Source of the DNA: a bacterium
Lineage (GTDB): Bacteria; Bacillota_I; Bacilli_A; RF39; UBA660
Assembly: GCA_004560915.1 (NCBI GenBank)
Contig: SFTR01000003.1
Location: forward strand, 1 to 18,906
Length of the DNA stretch: 18,906 nucleotides
Direction of reading: 5' to 3'
A program made the position numbers and the translations under genes. Shown here piece by piece: positions 1 to 16,511 of this stretch. Under the pieces are notes generated by a model that saw nothing but the letters and a program-made list of their open reading frames with translations, was not told where the DNA came from and searched no databases. Within the stretch, counting starts at the first letter, position 1; every line of letters starts with the position of its first letter.

Positions 1-744
1 AAAGTAGATGAATGTTATAATGGAAGTGAATGCCTTAATATGGTTGCTTCTAATAATGACTACGATATTATATTAATGGACATAATGATGCCAGTAATGA
101 ATGGTGAAGAAGCATTAAAAAAGTTAAAAGAAATAGATGGATTTAATACTCCAGTAATTGCCCTAACTGCTGATGCTGTATCTGGTTCTAAAGAAAAATA
201 TATCAAAGAAGGATTTGCAGATTATTTAGCTAAACCATTTAATAAAGATAGTTTAAAATTAAAACTAGATAAAATATTTAATAATGAAAAAGAATCTTCA
301 GAAGATAAATGGAAAGATGTACCAAAATATGAATTTGGAGCTGATATGAAACCTCTTGAAGAAGAAGTAACAAAAGAAGAAACTAATGATGATGAAAAAA
401 TTCTAGAAGATGCTAATATTGATTATAAAGTTGGACTAGAAAATTTTGGAAGCATGGAAATGTATAAAGAAATGTTAAATGATTGGTTCAAAGAAATAGA
501 TGAAAAATGGAATAGAATAGTTTCTAATAAAGAAAATATGAAAGAATATTCAGTAGACGTACATTCATTAAAAAGTGATTCAAAATACTTTGGATTTACA
601 GAACTATCAAAGTTATCACTTGATCATGAACTTAAAAGTAAAGATGGAGATAAAGAATACATAAAAAAACACTTTGATGAATTAGAAACAGAATATAAAA
701 GAATAATCGATGTAGTTAGTAAATATCTAAATGAAAACAAGTAA
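1..744 (+). CDS. Hybrid sensor kinase C-terminus: receiver + HPt domains (5' partial)
   Basis: The frame is open from base 1, so the N-terminal part lies outside the window and 247 residues are visible. Residues ~1-95 are a response-regulator receiver domain. The phospho-acceptor Asp is residue 27 in LMDIMMPVMNG, followed by the ALTADA switch segment and the LAKPF lysine. An acidic linker follows (~95-135). Residues ~138-245 form a helical HPt domain with the phosphorylatable His at residue 188 in VHSLKS. Receiver plus HPt at the end of one chain is the usual tail of a hybrid histidine kinase working in a four-step phosphorelay, probably at the membrane. The signal sensed and the partner regulator cannot be seen. 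The internal ATG at 40 falls inside the receiver fold and is unlikely to be the start. The gene ends in a terminator hairpin that contains its stop codon. Confidence 0.85.
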   Translation, partial: KVDECYNGSECLNMVASNNDYDIILMDIMMPVMNGEEALKKLKEIDGFNTPVIALTADAVSGSKEKYIKEGFADYLAKPFNKDSLKLKLDKIFNNEKESSEDKWKDVPKYEFGADMKPLEEEVTKEETNDDEKILEDANIDYKVGLENFGSMEMYKEMLNDWFKEIDEKWNRIVSNKENMKEYSVDVHSLKSDSKYFGFTELSKLSLDHELKSKDGDKEYIKKHFDELETEYKRIIDVVSKYLNENK

Positions 745-765
745 ACAAAAGTTTACTTGTTTTTT
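735..765 (+). terminator. Rho-independent terminator of the hybrid kinase gene
   Basis: A perfect 12-bp stem (AAACAAGTAAAC at 735-746, GTTTACTTGTTT at 751-762) with an AAAA loop runs into a T-tract. The TAA stop at 742-744 is inside the 5' arm. The A-rich left flank could also let it work on the minus strand. Confidence 0.85.
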
Positions 766-880
766 AAATTTATATAAAATTCATTTTTTAGTAAGTTTTA
801 TAGTATATTTATTAGTTTTTCATAAAAGAAAATTTATATTTTAAATTTATATTTCTAATACAAAATTAAATTATGTCTTT
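766..880. other. AT-rich intergenic stretch with no recognisable gene
   Basis: This stretch lies between the kinase terminator and the promoter at 881. It is almost entirely A and T with short ORFs only, and no conserved motif or RNA fold was recognised. It is the first part of a 580-base gap before the ABC-F gene. The rest of that gap holds the small-peptide locus and the attenuator. Confidence 0.5.
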
Positions 881-909
881 TTGACATTAGTATTTATGTA
901 TGATACTTT
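881..909 (+). promoter_or_regulatory. Strong promoter for the small hydrophobic peptide
   Basis: A consensus -35 TTGACA (881-886) is followed by a 17-bp spacer and an extended -10, TG-A-TACTTT (TG 901-902, hexamer 904-909). Transcription should begin near 916. This is the best -35 box seen in the window, yet it serves only a ~25-codon reading frame. Confidence 0.7.
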
Positions 910-979
910 GTTTTTTGAAATGTTTAGCTGGGAGTCATCTCATTATACAAATTTTAAAATTTATAAGGAAATGGTATAT

Positions 980-1057
980 ATGAAGAAAGATATACTTATA
1001 AGTGTACTTCTACTAATTATTATACTTTTAATTATTTTACTAATTAAAAACGCCTAA
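980..1057 (+). CDS. Small single-span hydrophobic peptide, candidate type I toxin
   Basis: A 25-residue reading frame begins MKKDIL, continues as an unbroken run of Val, Leu and Ile of about 17 residues, and ends LIKNA. This is one membrane span with a charged N-terminus and a Lys near the C-terminus. The SD AAGGAA at 965-970 sits 9 nt before the ATG at 980. An ATG at 971 is too close to that SD. The stop lies in a perfect 18-bp palindrome (1052-1069). The promoter at 881, the ~64-nt leader, the tiny hydrophobic product and a convergent short antisense RNA sharing the terminator match the layout of par/Fst-type type I toxin-antitoxin loci. The peptide has no sequence signature that I recognise as Fst, TxpA or Ldr. 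It could instead be a harmless small membrane peptide. Toxicity is inferred from architecture only. Confidence 0.5.
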   Translation: MKKDILISVLLLIIILLIILLIKNA

Positions 1058-1116
1058 CCTAGGTTAGGCTTCACAATTTTTGTTGACGTCCAGCTCAGGG
1101 GGCTAAACGTTTCACT
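1046..1116 (-). ncRNA. Candidate ~70-nt antisense RNA to the small peptide mRNA
   Basis: On the minus strand, TTTACT (1151-1146), a 17-bp spacer and an extended -10, TG-A-TATATT (hexamer 1128-1123), predict a start near 1116. The transcript would end at the palindrome 1069-1052, which on this strand is followed directly by GTTTTT, a better terminator than on the plus strand. That gives a ~70-nt RNA overlapping the 3' end of the peptide mRNA. In par loci the antitoxin RNA II has the same place and a similar size. Its 5' part contains a CCCCC run and could fold as UUAGC/GCUGG around a C-rich loop. The peptide mRNA leader carries a GGGAG run that could pair with it. The pairing is my inference and is short. 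Confidence 0.45.
1052..1069. terminator. Shared (bidirectional) terminator palindrome
   Basis: GCCTAACCTAGGTTAGGC is a perfect palindrome that folds on either strand as a 7-bp stem with a CTAG loop. On the minus strand it is followed at once by GTTTTT. On the plus strand the T-run (ATTTTTG) begins only ~7 bases later. The stop codon of the small peptide lies in its left arm. Confidence 0.7.
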
Positions 1117-1181
1117 AATAATAATATATCATATTTGAATTTTTTAGTAAATAAGAATATATAGAAATATAAATGCAAGTA

Positions 1182-1190
1182 TGATATAAT
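1182..1190 (+). promoter_or_regulatory. Extended -10 promoter of the ABC-F leader transcript
   Basis: TG-A-TATAAT (hexamer 1185-1190) has no convincing -35 box, as is usual for extended -10 promoters. The predicted start is near 1197, only ~13 nt ahead of the leader-peptide ATG. Confidence 0.6.
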
Positions 1191-1209
1191 ATGCACGAAA
1201 GGTGATATT

Positions 1210-1260
1210 ATGAAATACATTGGTACTAAAATTATGTATAGTAGTGATATCACACTTTAG
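1210..1260 (+). CDS. Leader peptide upstream of the ABC-F gene
   Basis: A 16-codon frame (MKYIGTKIMYSSDITL) has the SD AAAGGTG at 1198-1204 and ends at a TAG (1258-1260) lying just inside the downstream terminator hairpin. Translated leaders joined to an intrinsic terminator are the known control device of many antibiotic-resistance ABC-F and Erm genes, where a drug-stalled ribosome changes RNA folding. No known stalling motif is recognised in this peptide. The SD and ATG region (1202-1211) can pair with 1244-1253, which includes part of the terminator's 5' arm. Leader translation and termination therefore look physically linked. Confidence 0.6.
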   Translation: MKYIGTKIMYSSDITL

Positions 1261-1295
1261 TTATTCCTTTGAGTAACAAGAAGTGTGATTTTTTT
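1249..1295 (+). terminator. Attenuator terminator before the ABC-F gene
   Basis: An outer stem ATCACACTT (1249-1257) with AAGTGTGAT (1281-1289) encloses an inner stem GTTATTC/GAGTAAC (1260-1266/1271-1277, one G-U pair, CTTT loop). TTTTTTT follows through 1295. It sits between the promoter and the ABC-F ATG, so full expression needs readthrough. The competing pairing 1202-1211 with 1244-1253 removes five bases of the outer 5' arm and also hides the leader SD. Confidence 0.75.
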
Positions 1296-1325
1296 AACAT
1301 GCAATAAAAAAGGAGTAAAATAATT

Positions 1326-3707
1326 ATGATAGAAATAAGTATAAATAAAATAAATAAAAATTATGGATTTAATCCAGTATTAAAAGACTTTTCAATGGAA
1401 GTAAAAAGTGGTGAGAGAATAGCTCTTATCGGAAGCAATGGGTGTGGTAAAACTACTACACTTAGACTTATTATGGGTTTAGAAACTATAGATAATGGAA
1501 CTATTAATATAAGAAAAGGCGCTAAAATAGGTTATTTAACACAAATACCACCTAAAGAAGAAGATAATGTAAAAGCTAAAGATGTTTATTTACGTGGTAT
1601 TAAAGAATTACTTGATTTAGAAAAATCCATTAATTCTTATGTGGCAACTATGGACTCAAGTGAAAAATCTATTAAAACATTAGATAGATTACAAGAAGAA
1701 TTTAGAATTAAAGGCGGATATCAAATAAAAGAAAAAATAAATAAAATTAAAGGTGGTTTTAAGCTATCTGATGAGTTATTAGATACAGAGTATAATAACT
1801 TATCAGGAGGAGAGAAAACAATCGTAAATCTAGCTTCTTTAGTCCTATCTGAACCTGATGTACTTTTATTAGATGAACCAACTAATCATTTAGATATAGA
1901 TACTTTAGAATGGTTTGAAGAATATCTAAGCAACTACAAAGGTGCAGCTTTAATAGTAAGTCACGATAGATACTTTTTAGATAGAGTGGTAAACAAAATA
2001 ATAGAAATTAAAAATGGTAAAGAAGACGTATATCATGGAAACTATACATATTATTTAAAAGAATCAGAAAGAAGGTTTTTAAGCGAGTTCGCTGCTTATA
2101 AAAATCAACAAAAAGAAATAGAGGCAATAAAAGAAGCAATTAAAAGACTAAAAGAATGGGGCACTAAGAGTGATAATCCAATGTTTTTTAGAAGAGCAGC
2201 AGCTATGGAAAAAAGACTTGAAAGAATGGACATGATAGAAAAGCCAAAAGAAAAGACTGAATTAAGAGTAAATCTAACTACTGAAAATAGAAGTGGTAAT
2301 CATGTCCTTACTATAGATAATTTAAATTTAAATATTGGATCTCGCACCTTACTTGAAAAAGCAAGTATGAAAATATACTACCAAGATAGAGTTTGCTTAA
2401 TGGGTAAGAATGGAACAGGTAAAACAACACTAATTAAAAATATTATGAATAATACACATGATAATATAAAATTAGGTACAAATATTAAAATAGGATATAT
2501 ACCTCAAGAGATAAGATTTGACAATGAAGACTTGACAGTTTATGAACACGTACGCTCATTCTTTGTAGGAAGTGAAAGCGAACTTAGAAGTAAACTTCAT
2601 CAATTCTATTTTGGGGAAGAAGAAATATCTAAAAAACTAAAATCTATAAGTGGAGGAGAAAAAGTAAGAATCAAATTACTAGAACTAATTCTTTCTAAAT
2701 CTAATTTCTTAATTCTAGATGAACCAACAAACCATATAGATATAGATACAAAAGAAATATTAGAAGAAGCACTACTAGACTTTGATGGAACATTACTTTT
2801 CATCTCACACGATAGATACTTTATAAATAAAATAGCTACTAGAATAGTAAGAATAGAAAATAAAAAACTAGTTAGTTATGATGGCAACTATGACTCGATT
2901 AAAGATAAACAAGTTATTAACACAAATATTGAACAAAAGCCTAAAGAAGTTATTAACATCAAAGGAAGTAATAGACTAAACGAATTTTTGAAAGATGCTA
3001 ATAAAATAGAAGAAATAACAATAGGTTGTTCAGGTAAAAAAGTGTATAAAATTAGAAAGAAAAGTAAAGTGTTCTTTCTTAAAATTGCAGATCATTTATC
3101 CAAAGAATCTATTAGCTTAGACTATTTAAAAGATAAAATAACTGTACCAGAAAAAGTATTCTATGAAAAATACAATGGTAAAAGCTATATGCTTACTAAA
3201 TCATTAAAAGGTAATATGCTTTGTGATGATTACTATGAAGAACATCCACTCGAAGGAATTAAAGTTATTGTTGAAGCCTTCAATGCTCTTTATAATATAG
3301 ATTATAGTGACTGCATAATAGACGAAACAATAGATACTAAAATAAAAAGAATAGAAAATAGATTTAATACTATTAAAAATGAAGATATTAAACCAGAGAT
3401 ACTACAAAGATTCATAACAAAAGAAAACATATTAAAGTATCTAAAAGGTAATAAGCCAAAACAAATAATAGGTTTCACACACGGAGATATGTCACTACCT
3501 AATATATTCGCAGATAACGGACACTTTAGTGGACTACTTGATACAGAAGATGCAGGTCTTGGAGACATATATTTTGATTTAGTAATATGCGAAATATCCA
3601 TTGAAAGAAACTATGGAAAAGAATATATTGATAAATTCTATGAAGAACTTGGCATTGAAAAAGATGAATTCAAGAGTGACTATTATAGAATATTAATGAG
3701 TTTATAA
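1326..3707 (+). CDS. ABC-F protein fused to an APH(3')-like kinase domain
   Basis: This 793-residue protein has two parts. Residues 1-~530 are a soluble twin-ATPase ABC-F protein. It has Walker A at 36-43 and 360-367, signature SGGE at 160-163 and 442-445, Walker B plus DEPTNH at 180-190 and 461-472, and switch SHDR at 212-215 and 494-497. The inter-domain arm (~245-310) is charged and helical, with FFRRAAAMEKRLERM at 287-301. ABC-F proteins act on ribosomes at the E site and some protect against antibiotics. Residues ~545-793 replace the usual C-terminal tail with a whole aminoglycoside phosphotransferase fold. It has N-lobe Lys586 (FFLKIA), the catalytic loop HGDMSLPN (Asp721, Asn726) and metal-binding Asp739 in GLLDTED. 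It is colinear to the end with APH(3')-IIIa as I recall it. The drug-contacting Arg after the DLG-type motif is not present (Asp742). SD AGGAG lies 10 nt before the ATG, with no stop or frameshift at the junction. The kinase substrate is unknown. Confidence 0.9.
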   Translation: MIEISINKINKNYGFNPVLKDFSMEVKSGERIALIGSNGCGKTTTLRLIMGLETIDNGTINIRKGAKIGYLTQIPPKEEDNVKAKDVYLRGIKELLDLEKSINSYVATMDSSEKSIKTLDRLQEEFRIKGGYQIKEKINKIKGGFKLSDELLDTEYNNLSGGEKTIVNLASLVLSEPDVLLLDEPTNHLDIDTLEWFEEYLSNYKGAALIVSHDRYFLDRVVNKIIEIKNGKEDVYHGNYTYYLKESERRFLSEFAAYKNQQKEIEAIKEAIKRLKEWGTKSDNPMFFRRAAAMEKRLERMDMIEKPKEKTELRVNLTTENRSGNHVLTIDNLNLNIGSRTLLEKASMKIYYQDRVCLMGKNGTGKTTLIKNIMNNTHDNIKLGTNIKIGYIPQEIRFDNEDLTVYEHVRSFFVGSESELRSKLHQFYFGEEEISKKLKSISGGEKVRIKLLELILSKSNFLILDEPTNHIDIDTKEILEEALLDFDGTLLFISHDRYFINKIATRIVRIENKKLVSYDGNYDSIKDKQVINTNIEQKPKEVINIKGSNRLNEFLKDANKIEEITIGCSGKKVYKIRKKSKVFFLKIADHLSKESISLDYLKDKITVPEKVFYEKYNGKSYMLTKSLKGNMLCDDYYEEHPLEGIKVIVEAFNALYNIDYSDCIIDETIDTKIKRIENRFNTIKNEDIKPEILQRFITKENILKYLKGNKPKQIIGFTHGDMSLPNIFADNGHFSGLLDTEDAGLGDIYFDLVICEISIERNYGKEYIDKFYEELGIEKDEFKSDYYRILMSL

Positions 3708-3713
3708 CATAAA

Positions 3714-3747
3714 AAAAGAAGTTTAATTAATTAAATAAACTTCTTTT
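3714..3747. terminator. Bidirectional terminator between ABC-F and symporter genes
   Basis: A 12-bp perfect stem (AAAAGAAGTTTA at 3714-3725, TAAACTTCTTTT at 3736-3747) has a 10-base loop. It is A-rich on the left and T-rich on the right, so it can terminate both convergent genes. The symporter stop codon lies in the loop. Confidence 0.8.
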
Positions 3748-4972
3748 CTTTTAACCATTTTTTACCATCTACTATTCTAGCAACCATCATACTTGATGCT
3801 GTGTCACCTACAACATTTAACATAGTAGCAGGTGGGTCTATTATAGTTGCTATTATTGTTAATATAGGAAGTGCTGTTACTGGGAAACCTAACATAGTTA
3901 TAATTAACATTTCTGATATAGTTCCACCACCAATAGGTACAGCAGTAACAAGCAATGTAGCTATTAATGCAACTCCTAAAACTTTAAGAGTGCTTACATC
4001 TGAATTAAATAGATATACTAAGAACATAATTTTAAATACACTACCTATTATAGAACCATCTTTATGGAAACTTGTTCCAAGTGGTATAGTAGTATCAGCT
4101 ATATCTTCAGGTACACCAATATTCTTAGCACAAGTAGTATTTACTGGTATTGATGCAGCACTACTACAAGTAGCAAGACTAGTTAATGTAGCAGGCAAGA
4201 TATTCCTCCAATAACTAACAAATCCTTTCTTACCACCAGCAATAAATGCATATAATGAATAAACTGTAAAATAGAATAGAACAGTAACAACTGTATAAAT
4301 TATAAATGTTTTACCATATCCTATAGCAATCTCACCACCAAAAGTTCCAACTAAAGCAGCAAAATAACATCCAAGACCTATAGGTGCATAGTACATAATG
4401 AGTTTAATAAATGATTGTACAACTTCATTAGCACTCTCTAAAGCATCTAAGAACTTATCTCCTTTACCTTTACTCATATTAATACTAATTCCCATAAGTA
4501 TTGAGAATATAATTAAAGCAATCATATTATCTCTAGTAAGTAACTTACTAAAATCATTAACACTAACTGCTTCAACAGTTCTTTCTAAGAAATTAACATC
4601 TTCCTTAGTAACTTCTTCAGCTCCATTTAATACTTCCTTAATAGCTGCTTCATCTTTAACATCAACTAATCTAAATGCTTTAGTTGAAGCTATACCTACG
4701 AATACACTAACTATAGAAGTAAATGCAAATACAAGTATTATAGTAGTAAGTATCTTACCAATTCTCTTAGGTTGTTTCATTTTACCTATAGATGTACTAA
4801 TTGTTAAGAATATAAGTGGTACTATAATAACAAGTAACATGTTTAAGAATAAATCACCAAAAGGACTTAATACTGTAGCTTTCTCACCAAATATTAATCC
4901 TACTATAGTACCAATAATAATTGATCCTAAAAGTATTAATGTTGACTTATAATTTTTTAAAAACTTCTTCAT
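3731..4972 (-). CDS. Dicarboxylate/amino acid:cation symporter (SDF family)
   Basis: This 413-residue multi-span membrane carrier moves acidic or neutral amino acids or dicarboxylates with Na+ or H+. Visible family landmarks are the serine-rich HP1 tip (TCSSAAS, 268-274), the TM7 motif position reading HKDGS (303-307), the HP2 tip PIGGGT (346-351) and the TM8 substrate and ion region beginning DPPATMLNVVGD (379-390). The TM7 motif is usually NMDGT. The N, M and T are changed here while D and G stay, so the substrate should not be assumed to be glutamate. I place the start at the ATG at 4972, with SD GGAGG at 4982-4986. The longer frame from a TTG at 4981 would begin directly against the SD. 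A -10 TATAAT lies at 4998-4993. The gene is transcribed alone and is convergent with the ABC-F gene. Confidence 0.88.
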   Translation of the reverse strand: MKKFLKNYKSTLILLGSIIIGTIVGLIFGEKATVLSPFGDLFLNMLLVIIVPLIFLTISTSIGKMKQPKRIGKILTTIILVFAFTSIVSVFVGIASTKAFRLVDVKDEAAIKEVLNGAEEVTKEDVNFLERTVEAVSVNDFSKLLTRDNMIALIIFSILMGISINMSKGKGDKFLDALESANEVVQSFIKLIMYYAPIGLGCYFAALVGTFGGEIAIGYGKTFIIYTVVTVLFYFTVYSLYAFIAGGKKGFVSYWRNILPATLTSLATCSSAASIPVNTTCAKNIGVPEDIADTTIPLGTSFHKDGSIIGSVFKIMFLVYLFNSDVSTLKVLGVALIATLLVTAVPIGGGTISEMLIITMLGFPVTALPILTIIATIIDPPATMLNVVGDTASSMMVARIVDGKKWLKEKKFI

Positions 4973-5051
4973 AAGTTTCAACCTCCATATTAATTATATA
5001 ATTTTAAGTCTATAAAGTATACCTTTTATATTCCACAACAACTCCACAAAA

Positions 5052-5072
5052 AAAGAAGAATTAATCTTCTTT
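5052..5072 (-). terminator. Terminator of the acyl-CoA synthetase gene
   Basis: On the minus strand AAAGAAGA (5072-5065) and TCTTCTTT (5059-5052) form a stem around a 5-base loop that contains the stop codon. A T-run (TTTTTGTGG) follows. Confidence 0.7.
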
Positions 5073-6803
5073 CTTCTTTTCTAAATCTCTATAAGCAACT
5101 TTACCAACAGCTGTTTTAGGAAGTGTATCTCTAAATTCGTACTCAGTTGGTACTGCATACTTAGCTATATTTTTATAACAGTATCTTCTTATTTCTTCAC
5201 GTATTTCCATAGTGTTTTCTACGCCTTGTTTAAGTACTATTACTGCTTTAGGAGTTTGACTCTTTATCTTATGAGGAACTCCAACAACCGTACAAGTATC
5301 AACATATTTACATTTGTTAATAATATCTTCAAGTTCAATTGGATAAACGTTATAACCGTTAGTGATAATCATTCTCTTAAGTCTTGAAGTATAGAAGATA
5401 AATCCATCTTTATCCATATACCCAAGATCACCTGAGTGCAACCAAGTTTTACCATCGTTATGTAGAACTAAAGTCTTTTTAGTTTCCTCATCTTCATTAA
5501 TATAACCCATCATAAGAGTTGGTCCAGTTATACATATCTCACCAACATCGCCAACTGATTTTTCAACATCACTATTTGGTTCAAAAATTTTAACAATCAT
5601 ATCGGGATTTGGAATACCTAAAGTACCCTTGTGATTATTAACATGTTTTTCATCAACTTGTGCAGTACAGCAACAAAATCCACATGCTTCAGAAAGTCCA
5701 TATCCTACTTTAACAACAGCACTACTTCCATGAGTTTTTAAATATTCTTCATATTCATTTTTAACTTGAGGTGATAGGTAATCTCCACCTACAACAACAA
5801 CTTTTATATCTTTAAAAGCATTACTTCCAGGATCAGAATCATTCATAGACATTTTTAATAATGATGGAACAGCTGGATAAACACTAGGTTTATATTTTCT
5901 AAGTTCTTTATTAATTTTTTTAGTATTAAGTTGTGGTACAATTATACATTTCATACCAGCCACAAGACATGTATGAGTGCAAAGTGCTAAACCAAATACA
6001 TGGAATATAGGTAATGCTGATAATACTGAGTTTCCTGGGCTAATATACTCACATACACTTGATGTTTGTAAAGCCATAGCATTAAAGTTAGCATTAGAAA
6101 TTATTATTCCTTTAGGTTTACCAGTAGTACCACCACTATATATTATAGCAGCTGGGCTCTTTGAATCTCTCTTAACATAAGTGTTTTCATCTGTTCCATA
6201 ATTTAAAAACTCATGCCAAGTAAGCATACCTTCTTCAAGCCTCATATTCAAAGATGACTTAATATTATATAAAGTCTTTAATATTGTTCCTAAACTTTCA
6301 CTAGTAGGTACCATAATAAAATGCTTAACCTTAATATGTCTTGCTTTAGGCATAGCTACATCAGAACAAAATATAATAGAACTATTAGTTTCCTTTAAAG
6401 CTCTTTCTATATCTTGAGTAGAAGACAAAGGATGTATTATATTACATATAGCTCCAATCTTATTAACAGCATAAATTAAAGCAAAACTCTCAGGAGTATT
6501 AGGCATACATATCGTAACACACTCATTCTCTACAATATTAAATTCCTTTAAAGCAGAAGCAACTTTATCTATCTTCTTCATGAAAGACTTAAATGTAACT
6601 TCATTTCCATAGAAGGAATAAGCACTTCTTTTTTCATTCTTAGAAGCAGTATCTTTTAAATAGTCATACATACTTCCATTAAAATAATTTAAACTCTCAG
6701 GCACATCACCATAATATTTAAGCCAAGGTTTTTCTTTATTTTCAGGCTTTTCATTCTTAATGAACTTAATTAATTTATTTATATAATCATTAACTTTTCC
6801 CAT
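5061..6803 (-). CDS. AMP-forming acyl-CoA synthetase (long-chain fatty acid-CoA ligase type)
   Basis: This 580-residue adenylate-forming enzyme activates a carboxylic acid to acyl-AMP and then acyl-CoA. Visible motifs are the P-loop YSGGTTGKPKG (222-232), ALPIFHVFG (263-271), the adenine-binding GYGLSEACG (367-375), HSGDLGYMDKDGF (456-468), the hinge after YTSRLKRMI (471-479) with NGYNVYPIELE, and the C-terminal catalytic Lys568 in PKTAVGKV. Length and order fit the FadD/LcfB group, but substrate chain length is not readable. The start is supported by SD AAAGGA at 6815-6810. There is no signal peptide or membrane span. A short basic N-terminal extension (1-35) may help membrane association. 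It is divergent from a TetR gene across a palindrome, so regulation by that TetR, perhaps with an acyl ligand, is likely but inferred. Confidence 0.9.
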   Translation of the reverse strand: MGKVNDYINKLIKFIKNEKPENKEKPWLKYYGDVPESLNYFNGSMYDYLKDTASKNEKRSAYSFYGNEVTFKSFMKKIDKVASALKEFNIVENECVTICMPNTPESFALIYAVNKIGAICNIIHPLSSTQDIERALKETNSSIIFCSDVAMPKARHIKVKHFIMVPTSESLGTILKTLYNIKSSLNMRLEEGMLTWHEFLNYGTDENTYVKRDSKSPAAIIYSGGTTGKPKGIIISNANFNAMALQTSSVCEYISPGNSVLSALPIFHVFGLALCTHTCLVAGMKCIIVPQLNTKKINKELRKYKPSVYPAVPSLLKMSMNDSDPGSNAFKDIKVVVVGGDYLSPQVKNEYEEYLKTHGSSAVVKVGYGLSEACGFCCCTAQVDEKHVNNHKGTLGIPNPDMIVKIFEPNSDVEKSVGDVGEICITGPTLMMGYINEDEETKKTLVLHNDGKTWLHSGDLGYMDKDGFIFYTSRLKRMIITNGYNVYPIELEDIINKCKYVDTCTVVGVPHKIKSQTPKAVIVLKQGVENTMEIREEIRRYCYKNIAKYAVPTEYEFRDTLPKTAVGKVAYRDLEKKKED

Positions 6804-6830
6804 AATTGATTCCTTTCATATTAATCATAT

Positions 6831-6852
6831 ATGTGTTACAATTGTAACATAT
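6831..6852. promoter_or_regulatory. Candidate TetR operator palindrome
   Basis: Centred in the divergent intergenic region is GTTACAATTGTAAC (6835-6848), perfect and extendable to 22 bp with one mismatched pair. A half-site TGTTACAA recurs at 6885-6892 just ahead of the TetR SD. Position and symmetry suit binding of a TetR dimer that represses the acyl-CoA synthetase and its own gene. Confidence 0.65.
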
Positions 6853-6907
6853 TAAAAGAAGAAAAACTACTAGTTTATTCTAAATGTTACAAAAGAGGTG
6901 ATTTTGT

Positions 6908-7429
6908 TTGAATAATAAATTTATAAAAGAATGTATATTAAAATCATTAGTAAGTCTTATGAAAGAAAAAGAATTTAAAGATATAACTATTACTGAAATA
7001 ACTAAAAAAGCAGGAGTATCTAGAATGACTTATTATAGAAATTATAACTTTAAAGAAGATATTCTAAATGACTATATGACTACTTTAATAGAAGAGTATA
7101 AAACTAAACGTGAAGAAAACAAAGAAAATCCATATCTACTTATATTAAATGCATTTGAATTCTTTAAGAATAATAAAGACTTTGTTCTTGCTTTAGAAAA
7201 GTCTAATTTATCAAACGTAATACAAAATAAAATAAATGATTATATGTTAGTATTTTATCCTGAAACTAAAACTAATATTGAATATAAATATAATCTTTAT
7301 ATATTAAGTGGAGCTCTTTATAATACTTGTAAAATGTGGCTGCTTACTGGTTTAAAAGAAGATTCAAGTATACTTGCTAAAATATTTGTAGATAGACTTT
7401 TTAATAATTCAAATAAATACATCAATTAG
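6908..7429 (+). CDS. TetR/AcrR-family transcriptional regulator
   Basis: The protein has 173 residues. The N-terminal ~50 residues are a TetR DNA-binding domain, with the HTH read from ITEITKKAGVSRMTYYRNY (28-46). The rest is an all-helical ligand and dimer domain of the short TetR C-terminal kind. The start is TTG at 6908, preceded by SD AGAGGTG (6894-6900) at 7-nt spacing. No ATG lies in a better place. It is divergent from the acyl-CoA synthetase with a strong palindrome between them, the usual arrangement for a local repressor of its neighbour. The ligand is unknown. The stop overlaps by 4 bp, tail to tail, with the next gene on the other strand, and I see no hairpin there. Confidence 0.85.
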   Translation: MNNKFIKECILKSLVSLMKEKEFKDITITEITKKAGVSRMTYYRNYNFKEDILNDYMTTLIEEYKTKREENKENPYLLILNAFEFFKNNKDFVLALEKSNLSNVIQNKINDYMLVFYPETKTNIEYKYNLYILSGALYNTCKMWLLTGLKEDSSILAKIFVDRLFNNSNKYIN

Positions 7430-7944
7430 TGTTTTAAACTTTTATCAGTGGCAAACTCTTTAGCAGCAGCATAAGATGGATCTCTATTAGGATTATATCT
7501 ATTCTCTTCATTATACTTTAATCCTCTTTTAGCATACTCTTCTTCCATAATAAGCATTAGTGAAGTATCATATATCATACCTTTATAACTAATCCAAGTA
7601 TGTCTACCATCTGGAGAATTTTTACTTCCTTTAATTAATGGTAAAGTACCTCCACATATTTGAGAATATGGAAAACAAAAACTAAGATACTTAGAAAACT
7701 TAGTACAATTCCCCTCATTAAATCCTTTACCAAAAGCTTCTTCAAAATTAATAGGATTTCTTACATTTAATGAAGCCATCTTATTCCATAATTCTTCATC
7801 ATAACCAAGAATCTTACCTGAAAGAACACCATTTCTTATAAATTCAGCAAACTCTGGGTCAGTATCATAATAATATTTAAGCATACTAAAACATTTATAA
7901 CTCTTTCTTTTCTCATCAATAAGTGAACTTAGTATTTTATCCAT
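7426..7944 (-). CDS. Small C-H-D (papain/transglutaminase-like) protein
   Basis: This is a 172-residue cytosolic protein with no signal peptide. Residues ~76-130 carry Cys80 (FNEGNCTKFSKYL), His115 (GRHTWISYKG) and Asp126 (MIYDTSLML). The spacing and context, with a His before a two-strand hairpin and then Asp, resemble transglutaminase-like cysteine-peptidase folds. The N- and C-terminal parts are polar and helical and match nothing I know. I choose the ATG at 7944. It has GGTGAT just upstream and an extended -10, TG-T-TATGAT, ~17 nt before it. A longer frame from 8010 would start upstream of that promoter. Substrate and role are unknown. Catalytic activity is inferred from the triad only. 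Confidence 0.6.
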   Translation of the reverse strand: MDKILSSLIDEKRKSYKCFSMLKYYYDTDPEFAEFIRNGVLSGKILGYDEELWNKMASLNVRNPINFEEAFGKGFNEGNCTKFSKYLSFCFPYSQICGGTLPLIKGSKNSPDGRHTWISYKGMIYDTSLMLIMEEEYAKRGLKYNEENRYNPNRDPSYAAAKEFATDKSLKH

Positions 7945-8037
7945 AACATCACCAACTAAATCATAACATAATAAAATATTAAAACAATATAACTTACTAA
8001 AACTTGACATAAATTATTAAGAATAAAGTAATAAATA

Positions 8038-8046
8038 TGTTATAAT
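8038..8046 (+). promoter_or_regulatory. Extended -10 promoter giving a leaderless mRNA
   Basis: TG-T-TATAAT (hexamer 8041-8046) lies exactly 6 nt before the ATG at 8053, so the expected transcription start is the A of the ATG. A weak -35 (TTAAGA, 8017-8022) lies 18 bp upstream. There is no SD. Confidence 0.65.
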
Positions 8047-8052
8047 CTATTT

Positions 8053-9324
8053 ATGAAAAGAAATTATATAAAAATGAATGATAATGATAATTATTTATCA
8101 CTAGGTAATGTTATTAATACTATAAAGAAAGTATCTAATAATAAGAATGCTATGCAGACTGAACTATTCTATACTATTTTTAATGTTAATAATGTAAATG
8201 CTACTACTATAAATAATTATTGTATAGGCTATAGAGCAATCGGACTTGAGTATAAGAGAATATTTATTGATTTAAAAAGAAAGTTTGAACAAGATAAAGA
8301 AATATATATTAATATCATCTTAGGTATTCTATCTATAATGGATGATGTTATCTACGTCAAAGATGTTAGTTCTTTAGAACTCATAAATACTAATAAGAAA
8401 TTAAACGAAGTAATAAAAGAATTATTAATTATAGCTCAAAATGATAAACATATAGAAAAAGAAACAATAAATAGTATAAAGAAATTAAATAATTATGAAG
8501 CATTCATAGAACTTTTAAACTATAGTATTCTTGAAAATAATCAACCAGTATATACACAATCTATTAACATTAAAATAAATAGAGAAGAATTAAATGAATA
8601 TTTAAAAATTAAACTTTATTATGGAGAAAGTTATATAAATTCATTAATAGAACTATCTAGAAAAGATAATATGTATGCTTGTGCTGAACTTGGTTCATTA
8701 GAGTTTGATGGCTATATAAGTGGCAAACCTAATTATAAGAAATGCTATGATTATTATTATAAAGCCGCTTTAAAAGATCATCCTAAAGGTTGTTGGATGG
8801 TGGCTAACTTAATGTTAACTGGAAGAGTAAAGTTAGAATTTGATACTATGTGGAAGTATTTAAATAAGTCAATAGAACTAGGTAGTTTTGCTGGATATAA
8901 TACATTAGGCCTTTGCTACTTAAGAGGTATTAACAAACAAAACAAAAAAGATTTAAACGAAGCTAGAAAGAATTTTCAAATTTCAGCAGAACACGGATAT
9001 GTATTCGCATTCAATAACTTAGGTAAAACTTATGAAGAAGAAGGAAATATAGAAGAAGCAATAAAATATTATAAAGTTAGTGCAGATATGAATGAATGCT
9101 GGGCTCTTAATAAAGTAGGAGAGTACTATAGAAAAAAAAGAGACTTAAAAACTGCATACATCTATTACCTAAAAGCAACAGAATCTCCAATAACAGAAAG
9201 AATAAAATATCCATTCTATAATCTAGCAAAGTATTATTATGAAAACGGATGTGAAGAAGCAAATATAAAAAAAGATACAACAAAAGCAAAAGAATTATAT
9301 GACATTTACGAATCTTTAAAATAA
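8053..9324 (+). CDS. Sel1-like (TPR-related) repeat protein
   Basis: This 423-residue protein has no signal peptide or clear membrane span. Residues ~205-420 are a run of Sel1-type helical repeats. Repeated elements include ACAELGSLEFDGY, GCWMVANLMLTG, GYNTLGLCYLRG, AFNNLGKTYEEEG and ALNKVGEYYRKK, each followed by an A--YY-KA-type helix. Sel1 repeats are protein-binding scaffolds. The N-terminal ~190 residues are a helical Asn/Lys/Ile-rich domain that I do not recognise. The ATG at 8053 is fixed by the -10 box 6 nt upstream and the lack of any SD. The gene stands alone, divergent from the C-H-D protein, and ends at the hairpin at 9380. The binding partner is unknown. Confidence 0.75.
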   Translation: MKRNYIKMNDNDNYLSLGNVINTIKKVSNNKNAMQTELFYTIFNVNNVNATTINNYCIGYRAIGLEYKRIFIDLKRKFEQDKEIYINIILGILSIMDDVIYVKDVSSLELINTNKKLNEVIKELLIIAQNDKHIEKETINSIKKLNNYEAFIELLNYSILENNQPVYTQSINIKINREELNEYLKIKLYYGESYINSLIELSRKDNMYACAELGSLEFDGYISGKPNYKKCYDYYYKAALKDHPKGCWMVANLMLTGRVKLEFDTMWKYLNKSIELGSFAGYNTLGLCYLRGINKQNKKDLNEARKNFQISAEHGYVFAFNNLGKTYEEEGNIEEAIKYYKVSADMNECWALNKVGEYYRKKRDLKTAYIYYLKATESPITERIKYPFYNLAKYYYENGCEEANIKKDTTKAKELYDIYESLK

Positions 9325-9379
9325 TAAAAAGTAAATAAATATCATATTTAATCAAAGACGATTCCCTATAAAACTAATT

Positions 9380-9401
9380 AGAGGTTTATACCTCTTTTTT
9401 T
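9380..9401 (+). terminator. Terminator of the Sel1-repeat gene
   Basis: AGAGGT (9380-9385), TTAT loop and ACCTCT (9390-9395) form a perfect 6-bp stem followed by six T residues. Confidence 0.8.
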
Positions 9402-9453
9402 AACTTTTGAATAGTATTGTTGTATAATATGCCCCCATTAAAAGGGAATGGTT

Positions 9454-9863
9454 ATGGATAATGAATTTTTATTAATATTAAATTCTACGATTATAACAGA
9501 TGATTATAGTGATGAATTTATAAATACTATACTAAGATTTATAAAAGAATATTGTTATGCTGAATCAGTGATAATACTAGACCAAGAATCAAAAAGAAAA
9601 GAAAATTTCAAAATGATAAATTCTTTAGAGCAAGTCTTGCTATAATACTTGGTAATATGTTTAAAAATAAAAAAATAATTGAAGAACTTAAAAGAGAAAA
9701 ATACTTAGATAGTACTCTTAAAGTATATAAAGAAGAAACTGATGATTTAGAAAGCACTGTTGAAGAAGCAAGTTTTCTTATGAAAAGAAATAAAGATTCA
9801 TTTAGAGAGTCACATACTGAAATATATTTAGATAAATACAAAGTAAAACAAATCATAAAATAA
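9454..9863 (+). pseudogene. Small frameshifted gene, GAF/GGDEF-start-like remnant
   Basis: Two frames read as one gene split by a single missing A. Frame one runs from ATG 9454 (SD AAAGGG at 9441-9446, -10 TATAAT at 9423-9428) to a TAA at 9643-9645. Adding one A to the A-run at 9610-9613 restores an open frame through NDKFFRASLAIILGNMFKNK to the TAA at 9861-9863, ~137 residues in all. The rejoined protein has a short GAF-like look (ESVIILDQES, then a long helix before KREKYLDSTLKVYK). That helix end resembles the junction where a GGDEF domain would begin (LDSLTGLYN), but no GGDEF core follows. This likeness is weak. The second half could also be translated from ATG 9657, but I see no good SD there. 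It may be genuine decay or an assembly indel. Confidence 0.5.
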
Positions 9864-9882
9864 AACATTTTATGGTTTTTTT
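9852..9882 (+). terminator. Terminator after the frameshifted gene
   Basis: ATCATAAAAT (9852-9861) pairs with ATTTTATGGT (9867-9876, one U-G pair) around an AAAAC loop, followed by a T-run to 9882. The stop codon is at the top of the 5' arm. A working terminator here supports 9454-9863 being one transcription unit. Confidence 0.7.
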
Positions 9883-9926
9883 ATTATAGATATAGTATAA
9901 TCTATATAGAATAAAGAGGTGTTTAT

Positions 9927-10889
9927 ATGAAAGATATAGAAAACTCAATTATGTATAAAGAAGGAAATATTCTTAAGAGTAGAATAGAAGAACTTAATAA
10001 GAAGATTAAGACTGCTTCTAAAGAAGCAAAAGAGTTTATAGAAAAAGATATAAGAAAGTATGAGTATGCCCTAAGAGGAGAAAATAAAGTAATTAATGCT
10101 CTTATGAATAGTAATATTCCAATGCTTATATTACATGATTTAAATATTGTATATAAAGATCGTAGAGTTCAAATAGATTTTATGCTTATTACTAGAAGAA
10201 ACTATTATATATTAGAATGTAAGAATACTTATGGTAATATTTTAATTGATAATAGTGGTAACTTCTATAGAACATATTATGGTAAGAAAGTAGGTATTTA
10301 TAATCCTATAGATAAACTAGATAGAAATATAGACACTATTAAGATGTATTTAAATGATCATAGTACATTTCTTGAAAAATTAATATTAAATAAGGCTTAT
10401 GATGACTTTTATCATGGTATAGTAGTACTTTCTAATGAGAATACTATTGTTGATACTAAGAGTGCTCCAAGAGATGTTAAAAATAAAATAGTTAGAGTAG
10501 ATAAACTCGTAGATTATATTAAAAAGATAGAAAAGAATTCTACAGAGTTTTCAAGTATGGATGATATCATAAAAGAAAGTGCTGATAGAATATTATCTTT
10601 ATGTATTGATGAAGATATAGTAGATGATATAAATGAAACTAGTGTAGTATCAAGAGAAAAACTATTTGATTTAAATGATATTATTAAGAATAAACTTAAG
10701 AACTATAGAAACTATAAATCTAAACAACTTAACTATAAACCATATTATATATTTAGTGATAAAGTATTAAATGAAATAGTAAGAGTAAAACCGACAAATG
10801 AAAAAGAATTAAAGAGTATAGAAGGATTTTCTGATACTAAGTATAAGAAGTATGGAAAAGATATTATTAATATAATTAATGGTAAATAA
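9927..10889 (+). CDS. NERD-domain protein with C-terminal HRDC domain
   Basis: This 320-residue cytosolic protein starts with a helical coiled segment (1-45). It is followed by a NERD (nuclease-related) domain at ~46-170, with GE at 51-52, Asp84 in VQIDFMLI and ECK at 97-99. These are the D...ExK metal-site residues of the PD-(D/E)XK nuclease superfamily. A helical spacer follows. Residues ~255-318 look like an HRDC nucleic-acid-binding domain (VLNEIVRVKPTNEKELKSI, then the GFSDTKYKKYG turn). NERD plus HRDC suggests a DNA-processing enzyme, possibly repair or defence, but no specific role is established. The start at ATG 9927 has SD AAGAGGTG (9914-9921), and a -10 TATAAT lies at 9896-9901. 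It is a single-gene unit between two terminators. Confidence 0.8.
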   Translation: MKDIENSIMYKEGNILKSRIEELNKKIKTASKEAKEFIEKDIRKYEYALRGENKVINALMNSNIPMLILHDLNIVYKDRRVQIDFMLITRRNYYILECKNTYGNILIDNSGNFYRTYYGKKVGIYNPIDKLDRNIDTIKMYLNDHSTFLEKLILNKAYDDFYHGIVVLSNENTIVDTKSAPRDVKNKIVRVDKLVDYIKKIEKNSTEFSSMDDIIKESADRILSLCIDEDIVDDINETSVVSREKLFDLNDIIKNKLKNYRNYKSKQLNYKPYYIFSDKVLNEIVRVKPTNEKELKSIEGFSDTKYKKYGKDIINIINGK

Positions 10890-10919
10890 AAATTGTAAGA
10901 ATTAACTTACAATTTTTTT
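10888..10919. terminator. Bidirectional terminator between NERD and zinc-ribbon genes
   Basis: A 12-bp stem, AAAAATTGTAAG (10888-10899) with CTTACAATTTTT (10906-10917), has a 6-base loop, A-rich on the left and T-rich on the right. It overlaps the plus-strand stop and abuts the minus-strand stop at 10918. Confidence 0.8.
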
Positions 10920-11382
10920 AGTTGTTATTATAATTTTCTTCGAATTCTTTTTGTTGTTTTTCAAGTTCTTCTTTTATTTTATTATATTGATCATCGAATT
11001 CTTTATTTCTACTATCAATCATTTCTTTAGTATTATTTATTTCATCTCTTGTATCATTATAGTCGTTATTAAAGTTTACTATGTTTATTATAATTATTGT
11101 CATTATAGTTAATATTATTATTGCAGCTACAACGAACATAATCTTACCTATAGTAAATGTAGATTTAAAAGTTTTTAAACTAGTATCCATTATATCTTTA
11201 GTTTTTTCTTTTAATTCATTATCTAACTCTTTACTTCTTAAGTCAGTATCTTTTTCTTTATTAAGTCTTTCTTTATATTCTTTATAGTCTTGGTTTTTTG
11301 AATATGGTGCTTTACAGTTAGGACAAACTTTATCTTTATCTAAATCTATATTAGTACCACAATGTTCACATATTATTTTCAT
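10918..11382 (-). CDS. Zinc-ribbon, single-span membrane protein with coiled coil
   Basis: The protein has 154 residues. The N-terminus is a zinc ribbon with Cys5, Cys8, Cys20 and Cys23 (CEHC...CPNC). A charged helical stretch (30-75), one membrane span (~79-103, rich in Ile, Val and Thr) and a highly charged Glu/Lys/Asn coiled coil to the end follow. With a cytosolic ribbon the coiled coil would face outside. The function is unknown. The SD AGGAG (rc of 11388-11392) overlaps the murD stop at 11393-11391, leaving an 8-base gap, so it is the second gene of a murD operon and probably translationally coupled. A link to the envelope is suggested only by this position. Confidence 0.7.
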   Translation of the reverse strand: MKIICEHCGTNIDLDKDKVCPNCKAPYSKNQDYKEYKERLNKEKDTDLRSKELDNELKEKTKDIMDTSLKTFKSTFTIGKIMFVVAAIIILTIMTIIIINIVNFNNDYNDTRDEINNTKEMIDSRNKEFDDQYNKIKEELEKQQKEFEENYNNN

Positions 11383-11390
11383 ATTAACTC

Positions 11391-12728
11391 CTATAATTCT
11401 TTAACTAATTTTTTAAATTCATCGCCTCTGTCTTCAAATTTAGCATATTGATCCCAAGATGCACTTGCTGGACTTAGAAGAATAACATCTCCACTAACAC
11501 TTTCTTTATTAGCAACTTCTACTGCTTCTTTTAAAGTATTAACCATAGTACATTTAATACCTAGTGAATCTATTTGTTTCTTACATCTTTCTTTACATTC
11601 ACCATAACATACTACTGCTTTAGTATTTTTCATATAGTCTTTTAAATCTAAGAAGTTTTGTGTTCTTTCTTGACCACCTAATAATATAATAGTTGGTTTT
11701 TTAAATGCACTAAGAGCTATTTGAGTAGCTGTTATATTAGTAGCTTTAGAGTCATTATAGAAGTCTTTTCCTTCAAATGTTCTTACATATTCTATTCTAT
11801 GTTCTACTCCAGTAAACTCACTTATTGCCTTACACATTATTTCATTTGATATACCAAGTTCCTTAGCTATCATAATAGCACACATAACATTTTCATAATT
11901 ATGATTACCTTGTAATTTGATATCTTTAGTATCTATTATTTCTTCACCATAATAGTATATCTTACCATTTTCTAAATAAGCACCATCTATCTTTTCTTTA
12001 CTAGTGAAATATTTCTTAGTACTTTTTATATCTTTAGTAATTCTATATGCGTCTTCATTACCTTTGTTAATGATAGCAATATTCTTAGAAGTATGATTTT
12101 GGAATATTCTAAGTTTATTTTCATTATAATATTCGCGAGTACCAAACATATCTAAATGTGCTTCATATATATTAGTAAGAACAGCTATATCAGGATTAAA
12201 GTCATAGAAATCATGTAGTTGAGGAACACCAATCTCCATAATTAAATAATCATTCTCTTTGATGTCTTCAATAACTTCACATAAAGGAAAACCTATATTA
12301 CCTGCTAAATGTGTTCTACCAGGAAATGCAGCACTAACTATTTCATAAGTAAGTGATGTAGTAGTAGTCTTACCATTAGTACCAGTAATAGCTACTAGTT
12401 TAACTCCTTTAGGTAATAAATGATAAGCCATTTCTATTTCATTAATAATTTTAATATTATGTTCTTCTGCGTATTTTAAATATTTATGATCAAAATGAAC
12501 CCCTGGATTCTTAATTAAATAATCAAATGATTCATCTAATATATCATCAGGATGATCACCTAAGATTACTTTAACTCCTAAATCTTCTAATTCTTTAATA
12601 TGATTCTTATCTTGATTAGCATTCTTATCATTTAATACAATAGTGTTACCTCTTTTAGCAAGTACTCTAGCTGCATGATAACCACTTCTAGCCATACCAA
12701 GAATAAAAATCTTCTTGTTTTCAAACAT
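11391..12728 (-). CDS. murD: UDP-N-acetylmuramoyl-L-alanine--D-glutamate ligase
   Basis: This 445-residue cytosolic Mur ligase adds D-glutamate to UDP-MurNAc-L-Ala in peptidoglycan precursor synthesis. It has the N-terminal Rossmann-like UDP-binding domain (IFILGMARSGYHAARVL), the ATP P-loop GTNGKT at 116-121, HRIE at 310-313, NDSKATN at 325-331 opening the C-terminal domain, and LSPASASWDQY at 418-428. These are in the right order at near-standard length. I start it at ATG 12728 with SD GGAGG (12741-12737) at 8-nt spacing. A TTG at 12743 would overlap that SD. The preserved gene shows the organism makes a wall. No other mur gene or cell-division cluster is adjacent, which is unusual because murD often sits in a dcw cluster. 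Confidence 0.93.
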   Translation of the reverse strand: MFENKKIFILGMARSGYHAARVLAKRGNTIVLNDKNANQDKNHIKELEDLGVKVILGDHPDDILDESFDYLIKNPGVHFDHKYLKYAEEHNIKIINEIEMAYHLLPKGVKLVAITGTNGKTTTTSLTYEIVSAAFPGRTHLAGNIGFPLCEVIEDIKENDYLIMEIGVPQLHDFYDFNPDIAVLTNIYEAHLDMFGTREYYNENKLRIFQNHTSKNIAIINKGNEDAYRITKDIKSTKKYFTSKEKIDGAYLENGKIYYYGEEIIDTKDIKLQGNHNYENVMCAIMIAKELGISNEIMCKAISEFTGVEHRIEYVRTFEGKDFYNDSKATNITATQIALSAFKKPTIILLGGQERTQNFLDLKDYMKNTKAVVCYGECKERCKKQIDSLGIKCTMVNTLKEAVEVANKESVSGDVILLSPASASWDQYAKFEDRGDEFKKLVKEL

Positions 12729-12807
12729 ATTACACGCCTCCAATATAATTATACAACATTGATTAGTTCATATTTAATAATATGTGTAAACTTTACAATG
12801 AAATAAA

Positions 12808-12845
12808 AAAAATAACTACGATTTTTACTTTTTATAGTTATTTTT
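12808..12845 (-). terminator. Terminator of the HD/CmpB-like unit
   Basis: On the minus strand an 11-bp perfect stem (AAAAATAACTA, 12845-12835, with TAGTTATTTTT, 12818-12808) encloses a 16-base loop holding the stop codon. T residues follow. Confidence 0.7.
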
Positions 12846-13529
12846 AATAGAAACTGCTTTATCTTTTAAATATTTCATTTTTTCTTTTATATTAAATTTA
12901 AATCTAATATTTGGAAATGCTTTAAATAATCTTTTAGCAAGTACATTATCACTAAGTATCTTTTTAACTTTTTCTGTTATTTCTTTTGTATTGTCTAAGT
13001 GTACATATTTAACACCCATATCTTTAATTTTAATTATTACTTTGAATGATATAAAGTTATCTATTAAGAATAGTGTTAGTATTGTATAAAATAATATGTT
13101 AATAGTTAGAGGACTTAGCTTATCAAATAAACTAAGAGCAAAAGGATTTACAAATTTAACTAGTAAGAATCCAAGTACTCCGAAAGCTAAACTATTTACT
13201 AAGCAAATTCTGCCATTTATATTAAATTTATTCTTAGTGTAATCCCACCATCTAGCATGAAATAGTTTTTCCATTAAATAACTTGTTATATATTCTCCAG
13301 CACTGCATATTATGATTGATAGAACAAATAGTAATACTGGACTTTTTACATTATGTAGTAAAAGTACCATAGCTAAAGCACAATTACCATATATAGGACA
13401 ATATGGACCTATTAAGAATCCTCTATTTACAAAACATTTTGTATCAGGATATGTAGCAACTACTTCTATCATCCAACCAATCATTGAATAAGCAATAAAT
13501 AATAAAAATAATATTTTTAAATCACACAT
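12825..13529 (-). CDS. CmpB-type membrane protein (putative ABC transporter permease family)
   Basis: The protein has 234 residues. Family signatures are the N-terminal span ending SMIGWMIEV, FVNRGFLIGPYCPIYG (33-48), and the segment from HARWWDYTKNKFNINGR into ICLVNSLAFGVLG (91-120). About five spans fall near 4-22, 47-60, 63-85, 108-128 and 140-165, and a basic cytosolic tail follows (~166-234). Database entries label this family putative ABC transporter permease, but nothing here shows transport and no ATPase is adjacent. SD AAGGAG (13544-13539) and the ATG at 13529 lie inside the preceding HD gene, with a 13-bp overlap, so the two genes form a tightly coupled unit. The actual function is unknown. 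Confidence 0.8.
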   Translation of the reverse strand: MCDLKILFLLFIAYSMIGWMIEVVATYPDTKCFVNRGFLIGPYCPIYGNCALAMVLLLHNVKSPVLLFVLSIIICSAGEYITSYLMEKLFHARWWDYTKNKFNINGRICLVNSLAFGVLGFLLVKFVNPFALSLFDKLSPLTINILFYTILTLFLIDNFISFKVIIKIKDMGVKYVHLDNTKEITEKVKKILSDNVLAKRLFKAFPNIRFKFNIKEKMKYLKDKAVSIKNNYKK

Positions 13530-14032: not shown

Positions 14033-14038
14033 GTAAAC

Positions 14039-14047
14039 ATTATAACA
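14039..14047 (-). promoter_or_regulatory. Extended -10 promoter of the HD/CmpB-like unit
   Basis: On the minus strand TG-T-TATAAT (hexamer 14044-14039) has the same nine bases and the same 6-nt distance to a start codon as the promoter at 8038. It points to a leaderless transcript beginning at GTG 14032. Confidence 0.6.
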
Positions 14048-14074
14048 AATATAGATTATTATTAAAAGAGATTA

Positions 14075-14083
14075 TGCTATAAT
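14075..14083 (+). promoter_or_regulatory. Extended -10 promoter before the DUF362 remnant
   Basis: TG-C-TATAAT (hexamer 14078-14083) is followed by SD AAGGAG (14095-14100) ahead of ATG 14105. Promoter and SD are intact even though the coding sequence behind them is broken. Confidence 0.6.
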
Positions 14084-14104
14084 AGACATATAATAAGGAG
14101 AAAA

Positions 14105-14802: not shown

Positions 14803-14860
14803 CTTTATTTTTAAGTAATTTTGTGGTATCATTTACGGATAAAAAAGGGAGATGAATTAA

Positions 14861-16489: not shown

Positions 16490-16501
16490 AAATACTCTTT
16501 T
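16481..16501 (+). terminator. Terminator of the pyrophosphatase gene
   Basis: AAAGAGTA (16481-16488), a GAAA tetraloop and TACTCTTT (16493-16500) form an 8-bp stem with a GNRA loop, followed by only a short T-run. The TAG stop (16487-16489) is in the hairpin. Confidence 0.65.
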
Positions 16502-16511
16502 AATTTGGTAT

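Follow-up and report, generated by a model that had tools for sequence, protein, structure and literature searches.

A conserved family of proteins joining a ribosome-protection-like ABC-F factor to an APH(3')-related kinase

Introduction

The resistance ABC-F proteins VmlR2, VmlR and PoxtA, whose structures on the 70S ribosome are available (PDB 8buu, 6ha8 and 7p7q), are among the closest described relatives of the protein considered here, a fusion of an ABC-F protein with a kinase of the aminoglycoside phosphotransferase (APH) type. Its gene lies in an 18,906-nucleotide stretch of DNA, hereafter the window (assembly GCA_004560915.1, contig SFTR01000003.1, positions 1 to 18,906 of the forward strand), from a bacterium of the GTDB lineage Bacillota_I, Bacilli_A, RF39, UBA660. 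The three resistance proteins are ~28–32% identical to the window protein and have no kinase domain; resistance has been proven for them, whereas for the window protein it is a prediction. VmlR, VgaA-LC and VgaL bear only a short C-terminal extension, in contrast to the whole kinase of the fusion, and the resistance conferred by VmlR depends on its extension (cited in PMC8196190).

On the kinase side, the reference is APH(3')-IIIa with the rest of the APH(3') family, at 28–29% identity. The window kinase scores under the family cut-off and is fused to an ABC-F protein; unlike the APH(3') family, it has lost E262 and F264, and some branches of the fusion family have lost the catalytic Asp. In msr(E)-mph(E) and lsa(E)-lnu(B), a protection ABC-F likewise accompanies an enzyme that modifies drugs (a macrolide kinase or a lincosamide nucleotidyltransferase), but there the two are encoded by adjacent plasmid genes. 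Fungal ABCF3 joined to a WHI2-like protein is also a natural ABCF fusion to an unrelated partner, although a eukaryotic one and with another partner (PMC6723617); the word “phosphotransferase” is absent from the main text of that broad survey. An earlier note on this DNA, made from the sequence without database searches, knew of no described ABC-F–APH fusion, and none was found in the literature that we searched, with preprints and most subscription papers outside its scope.

Protection of the ribosome and modification of the drug are known as distinct resistance strategies whose genes are at most neighbours; here, the corresponding domains share a single conserved polypeptide. Should the kinase act at the ribosome, the dislodging of a drug would be coupled with its destruction. 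We put forward, at nearly even chances, the reading that the fusion is an inducible ribosome-protection ABC-F carrying a captured APH(3')-related kinase as its C-terminal extension, with an unusual substrate and a non-catalytic role.

Conservation of the fusion

The fusion is one member of a genuine and conserved family of proteins and not an assembly join. With residues 525–793 of the product as the query, 577 proteins were retrieved, and 114 of the best 120 were 785–800 amino acids long, i.e., of full fusion length; the longest contig bearing a match among these 120 measured 1.16 Mb. The listed proteins (P0001–P0282) were taken from three overlapping searches (the best 120 of 577, all 45, and the best 120 of 7996). 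The family alignment comprised 149 fusions, namely the query and 148 of the 282 listed proteins with lengths of 760–800 amino acids; among the 134 dropped, 49 were pieces of the family at least 60% identical and 85 were not. Clustering at 92% identity gave 31 representatives, 18 with the catalytic Asp and 13 without it. In the tree of the ABC-F half, all 31 formed one clade against 12 standalone ABC-Fs, with a support of 100/100. The closest standalone ABC-Fs were 52–59% identical and the closest standalone kinases 41–47% identical, among the matches listed. One fusion relative, P0060, is labelled “Clostridium sp. CAG:1000.”

The earlier note had described a fusion in one frame and named an assembly join as the finding that would undo it. 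Database search and alignment confirmed the fusion through its full-length relatives and their single clade, and no sign of such a join was seen, 149 full-length fusions having been aligned. An assembly artefact or a chance read-through across two genes is next to inconceivable: it finds nothing in its favour in the window, even if some proteins on the list seem to be split or chimeric (P0187 with P0145, P0172 with P0139, and P0039), and it is ruled out by the full-length family, the single clade and the shared composition. The two sides of the join have a third-position GC of 0.149 and 0.171, compared with 0.124–0.158 for six neighbouring genes. Because the family is one conserved clade and this composition is shared with the neighbours, the fusion looks old and native to its genome. 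A recent acquisition of the gene was considered and rejected, as GC shows no clear sign of it.

Several of the listed proteins show irregularities of their own. P0187 and P0145 give the same longest contig (14298), as do P0172 and P0139 (72739), which suggests that in both cases the two pieces, ABC-F and kinase, come from one divided fusion gene. P0039 looks chimeric, with an ABC-F half 95% identical to that of P0007 and a kinase half that falls with the P0011/P0012 cluster; this may be due to recombination or to an assembly join. Five dropped pieces (P0166, P0177, P0187, P0198 and P0209) run from residue 1, end between residues 466 and 543 and have no kinase. They may reflect contig ends or broken genes, or they may be genuine members without a kinase.

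The ABC-F half

Each chain shows the organization of an ABC-F protein: two ABC domains, no membrane domain, and the ABC_tran_Xtn/PtIM region between them. Both ATPase sites are kept in all of the 149 fusions (Walker A Lys, Walker B Glu and the switch His in each domain), in agreement with the motifs that the earlier note had read in the window. The NCBIfam profile NF000355, “ribosomal protection-like ABC-F,” gave 444.4 bits against a cut-off of 380. No other NCBIfam family exceeded its cut-off among the best 25 rows, and the scores for EttA and Uup were below theirs. Judged by these profiles, the ABC-F half is of the ribosome-protection-like kind.

The PtIM/ARD of 67 residues is 5–8 residues longer than in EttA, Uup, YbiT and YheS of Escherichia coli (59–62). 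Among the resistance factors, it measures 62 residues in OptrA, 67 in PoxtA and 90–94 in MsrE, VgaA and LsaE (23–27 above the window protein); two of the nine loci (L089 and L090) gave no open reading frame by pattern and were omitted from this comparison. PoxtA, with an equally short ARD, still displaces the end of the P-site tRNA (PMC8987054). The tree with reference ABC-Fs was poorly resolved at its base. An ABC-F encoded by the Staphylococcus epidermidis plasmid pKSE112-pep5 (L181), near the lantibiotic gene pepC, is ~41% identical to the ABC-F half and has a PtIM of 70 residues.

The kinase half

The kinase is separated from the ABC-F half (residues 1–525) by a disordered linker (Table 1). 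As a yardstick for its residues, we used a plasmid-encoded APH(3')-IIIa variant (L185) that is three residues short, with the numbering shifted by 3. K44, E60, D190, N195 and D208 correspond to K586, E594, D721, N726 and D739 of the window protein and are kept in 119/119 fusions that have the catalytic Asp; the earlier note had rightly placed K586, D721, the HGDMSLPN motif and D739. It had also proposed a structural overlay, and when this was done, the kinase model fitted the APH(3') fold at 2.0 Å. The NCBIfam profile APH_3p gave 165.9 bits, under the cut-off of 205 that is passed by the standalone kinases P0148 (218.2) and P0151 (224.2). By sequence comparison, the kinase is APH-like in its catalytic core yet outside the cut-off of the APH(3') family.

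The contacts made by E262 and F264 in APH(3')-IIIa are rated critical in a review (PMC3691515). In the 119 fusions with the catalytic Asp, the E262 position is taken by Ser in 116 (S792 in the window), Phe in two and Cys in one, and the F264 position is absent from every one of them, the window protein included. The standalone relatives have Glu and Tyr, respectively, at these positions (12/12). The E157 position, in a poorly aligned loop, is non-acidic in both the fusions and the standalone kin. The window kinase is predicted to be active, with a substrate other than the usual aminoglycosides. The earlier note had come to doubt classical aminoglycosides from the Asp found at the position of Arg211. 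The doubt stands and is better based because E262 and F264 are lost in 119/119 fusions that carry the Asp; the Arg211 argument itself was demoted, since 12/12 standalone relatives have Glu at this position.

Fourteen residues of the kinase domain (R550, H590, S592, S620, T668, G708, S784 and seven more) were found in 149/149 fusions, regardless of the catalytic Asp, and in none of the 12 standalone kinases; some of them occur in APH(3')-IIIa. They may form a surface that contacts the ribosome or the ABC-F half.

Repeated loss of the catalytic Asp

The catalytic Asp is present in 119 of the 149 fusions and replaced by Lys or Asn in the other 30. It was lost in at least three events according to the kinase tree and in six to seven according to the ABC-F tree. 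One of the predicted-dead members was modelled and retained the APH fold. Since all 30 fusions without this Asp keep the kinase domain, its role is probably in part structural, and a purely catalytic account of the fusion, such as that of the earlier note, does not fit. In the 18 clusters with the Asp, the mean identity is 77.3% for the kinase vs. 73.6% for the ABC-F half. The tails with and without the Asp, borne by closely related ABC-Fs, make up a natural comparison set for the function of ABC-F C-terminal extensions.

The upstream region

The fusion gene is preceded by a promoter-like site, a short leader open reading frame and a terminator-like hairpin overlapping its end (Table 1). The promoter-like site is argued by position and not by statistics, as the scan gave 13 sites, fewer than the shuffle mean of 19.8. 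Positions 1240–1300 fold at −17.8 kcal/mol (z = −4.61; 0/200 shuffles as good), and the z score of the whole 1197–1330 region is −2.61. The hairpin is omitted by the pattern scan, which has a loop limit of 8. In the predicted fold, positions 1198–1211 can also pair with 1244–1258, forming an antiterminator-like helix that involves the 5' arm of the terminator.

When the leader start region was masked in folding, as by an initiating ribosome, the terminator formed. Masking of 1235–1273, as by a ribosome stalled late in the leader, abolished both the terminator and the pairing that covers the Shine-Dalgarno sequence of the gene. An attenuation model would need both a translated leader and a late stall, because only the late-stall mask removes the hairpin. 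The vmlR leader is described as having an upstream open reading frame, a terminator and a hairpin covering the vmlR Shine-Dalgarno sequence (PMC9226507). The leader of the fusion gene is possibly a drug-responsive attenuator; together with the terminator, it is the best clue that translation inhibitors may control the gene and the main support for a drug-responsive role. A search with Rfam gave no match within the window at gathering scores.

Further upstream, on the same strand, an open reading frame at 980–1057 encodes 25 residues, nearly all of them hydrophobic (MKKDILISVLLLIIILLIILLIKNA), and its end overlaps a perfect inverted repeat at 1052–1069. A small membrane peptide is a possible product.

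Table 1. Predicted features of the fusion gene and of the region upstream of it (window coordinates).
Feature	Position	Strand	Basis or details
Promoter-like site TAGAAA, 17 nucleotides, TATAAT, extended −10 TG	1162..1190	+	10/12 matches
Shine-Dalgarno-like AAAGGTG of the leader open reading frame	1198..1204	+	sequence
16-codon leader open reading frame (MKYIGTKIMYSSDITL)	1210..1260	+	good Shine-Dalgarno sequence; start 1210
Intrinsic-terminator-like hairpin	1249..1295	+	arms 1249–1258/1280–1289, inner stem, T-run 1289–1295; overlaps end of leader open reading frame
Alternative pairing of 1261–1270 with 1309–1318	1261..1318	+	would cover the Shine-Dalgarno sequence of the fusion gene
ABC-F–APH fusion gene	1326..3707	+	793 amino acids, single reading frame
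ABC-F nucleotide-binding domain 1 and Arm	1326..2045	+	residues 1–240
PtIM/ARD interdomain region	2061..2261	+	residues 246–312; 67 residues, same as PoxtA; ABC_tran_Xtn match
ABC-F nucleotide-binding domain 2	2262..2900	+	residues 313–525
Flexible linker, weakly conserved	2901..2966	+	residues 526–547; pLDDT <50 at 528–541
APH(3')-fold kinase domain	2967..3704	+	residues 548–793; K586, E594, D721, N726, D739 in place

Proposed mode of action and alternative explanations

As an inducible protection factor with a captured kinase, the fusion might work as follows. A translation inhibitor would stall the ribosome near the end of the leader, the terminator could not form, and the gene would be transcribed, as the sequence and the folding suggest. 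By homology and fold, the ATP-bound ABC-F half would then enter the E site, where the PtIM/ARD of PoxtA length would push the P-site tRNA and relieve the block. The kinase, tethered to nucleotide-binding domain 2 by the ~22-residue linker, is expected on the small subunit near the mRNA exit, between uS7 and uS11, because the extensions of VmlR and VgaA that leave this domain lie there. In the branch of the window protein, it would act either on a translation inhibitor that it encounters at the ribosome or that the ribosome has released, or on a ribosome-associated target. In other branches, the Asp was lost and the domain kept. As this happened at least three times, a non-catalytic job is suggested for the domain, most simply the anchoring of the factor on the ribosome.

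Edeine, kasugamycin, pactamycin and amicoumacin bind overlapping sites close to the E-site codon (PMC7907450). The amicoumacin cluster is described as including amiN, a gene for a putative kinase, although the Xenorhabdus cluster studied lacks it (PMC5055758). That such E-site-codon drugs are the substrate of the kinase is speculation. A fuller evolutionary course, which we hold to be unlikely, would lead from a captured kinase to a tethered enzyme acting on an inhibitor near the small-subunit E site and mRNA exit, where these four drugs bind, and from there, in several branches, to a pseudokinase with a ribosome-contact or regulatory job. If true, a drug-modifying domain would be built into a ribosome-protection factor, and the family would trace in nature how a resistance enzyme becomes a scaffold.

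Other explanations have to be weighed against an inducible protection factor. It is possible, though on the whole doubtful, that the protein is a housekeeping or stress translation factor rescuing stalled ribosomes, of the YfmR/EttA type, with the tail as an evolved ribosome-binding extension and drugs uninvolved. Such a factor would suit the best PDB sequence match, which is EttA (2.4e-78), the retained Arm and the PtIM barely longer than in the E. coli proteins, as well as the third-position GC close to that of the neighbours, the retention of kinases without the Asp, and the lack of any mobile-element family in the 10 window open reading frames scanned with Pfam (three of them without a family). 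It is at odds with the leader and the overlapping terminator-like hairpin upstream and with the NCBIfam assignment as ribosomal-protection-like, below the EttA and Uup cut-offs; moreover, an inert tail would not explain a kinase slightly better conserved than the ABC-F half in the 18 clusters with the Asp.

The tethering of the kinase to a ribosome factor and the loss of the aminoglycoside specificity residues would also agree with phosphorylation of a part of the stalled translation complex (a ribosomal protein, tRNA, the nascent chain or the ABC-F itself) instead of a small molecule. The kinase has 43 acidic residues vs. 54 in the APH(3')-IIIa reference, a weak point, as two standalone kinases have 43 and 49. 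However, its nearest kin are small-molecule kinases, by both the APH_3p score and the identity to the standalone relatives, no protein-substrate feature was identified, and the repeated loss of the Asp speaks against an essential modification, so that we regard this role as distinctly improbable. Very improbable, in our estimate, is a dual resistance enzyme that inactivates aminoglycosides of the ordinary kanamycin/neomycin type as well. The APH(3') fold and the intact catalytic core would allow it, and ABC-F genes do adjoin drug-modifying genes, as in the msr(E) and lsa(E) pairs; against it stand the loss of the E262 and F264 positions in all 119 fusions with the Asp, the non-acidic E157 position in its poorly aligned loop, and the APH(3') score under the curated cut-off.

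The inducible protection factor with a captured kinase, which we prefer, has several points against it as well. Named resistance families (Vga, Msr, Sal, CplR, OptrA and Lsa) were all under their cut-offs, e.g., Vga with 343 vs. 725 and CplR with 316 vs. 780, and ABC-Fs with a short PtIM are hard to separate from housekeeping ones (PMC8987054). In the leader, the antiterminator form wins when nothing is masked, as in an untranslated leader, and a shortened terminator hairpin persists when the bases up to 1252 are masked, as by a mid-frame stall. Upon a late stall, the leader start can pair with the start region of the gene unless a second ribosome covers it. In 2000 dinucleotide shuffles of 1075–1325, the terminator occurred 7 times, the leader open reading frame 547 times and both in overlap once, by criteria set after the site had been seen. 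A tblastn search with the kinase part against 185 loci matched only the APH(3')-IIIa reference L185 and thus provided no fusion with an upstream region for comparison of leaders. The number of Asp losses differs between the two trees, and the placement of the kinase relative to the ABC-F half is unreliable in the predicted model of the fusion (pTM 0.56). The p value of the divergence-ratio test is only indicative, the rows being related sequences; 5 of the 18 rows with the Asp, besides P0007 and P0039, lie at 1.0–1.2 or not clearly above, and P0007 with the chimeric-looking P0039 (4.49) points in the opposite direction.

Mobility and genomic context

A mobile origin of the fusion was rejected on the plasmid and phage records counted. 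Among the 5000 best plasmid records, one has a place covering 80% of the fusion protein (row H32), and this proved to be a join of the separate lsa(E), lnu(B) and aph(3')-IIIa genes; none of the 431 matching phage records reaches this coverage. The kinase part matched 1179 plasmid records, all below 60% identity, with a maximum of 30.5% among the 30 listed. A role in anti-phage defence was rejected as well: PADLOC gave 16 families, the best being mad3 with 158.7 bits over the ATPase stretches, which we read as generic ATPase matches. The loci studied were samples, 80 of 267 from the genome collection (query-specific peptides) and 80 of 152 from viral contigs. In 199 genomes of one phylum, six matches to P0035 were obtained, all within residues 1–570; a kinase search at E 1e-20 in 199 genomes of another phylum gave 0 matches, an empty result that is uninformative.

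Two other genes of the window, both on the forward strand, encode proteins with recognizable domains. The protein encoded at 9927–10889 has a NERD nuclease-related domain and, at its C terminus, an HRDC domain, and 16668–17747 encodes a Fic/DOC family protein with a Fic_N domain.
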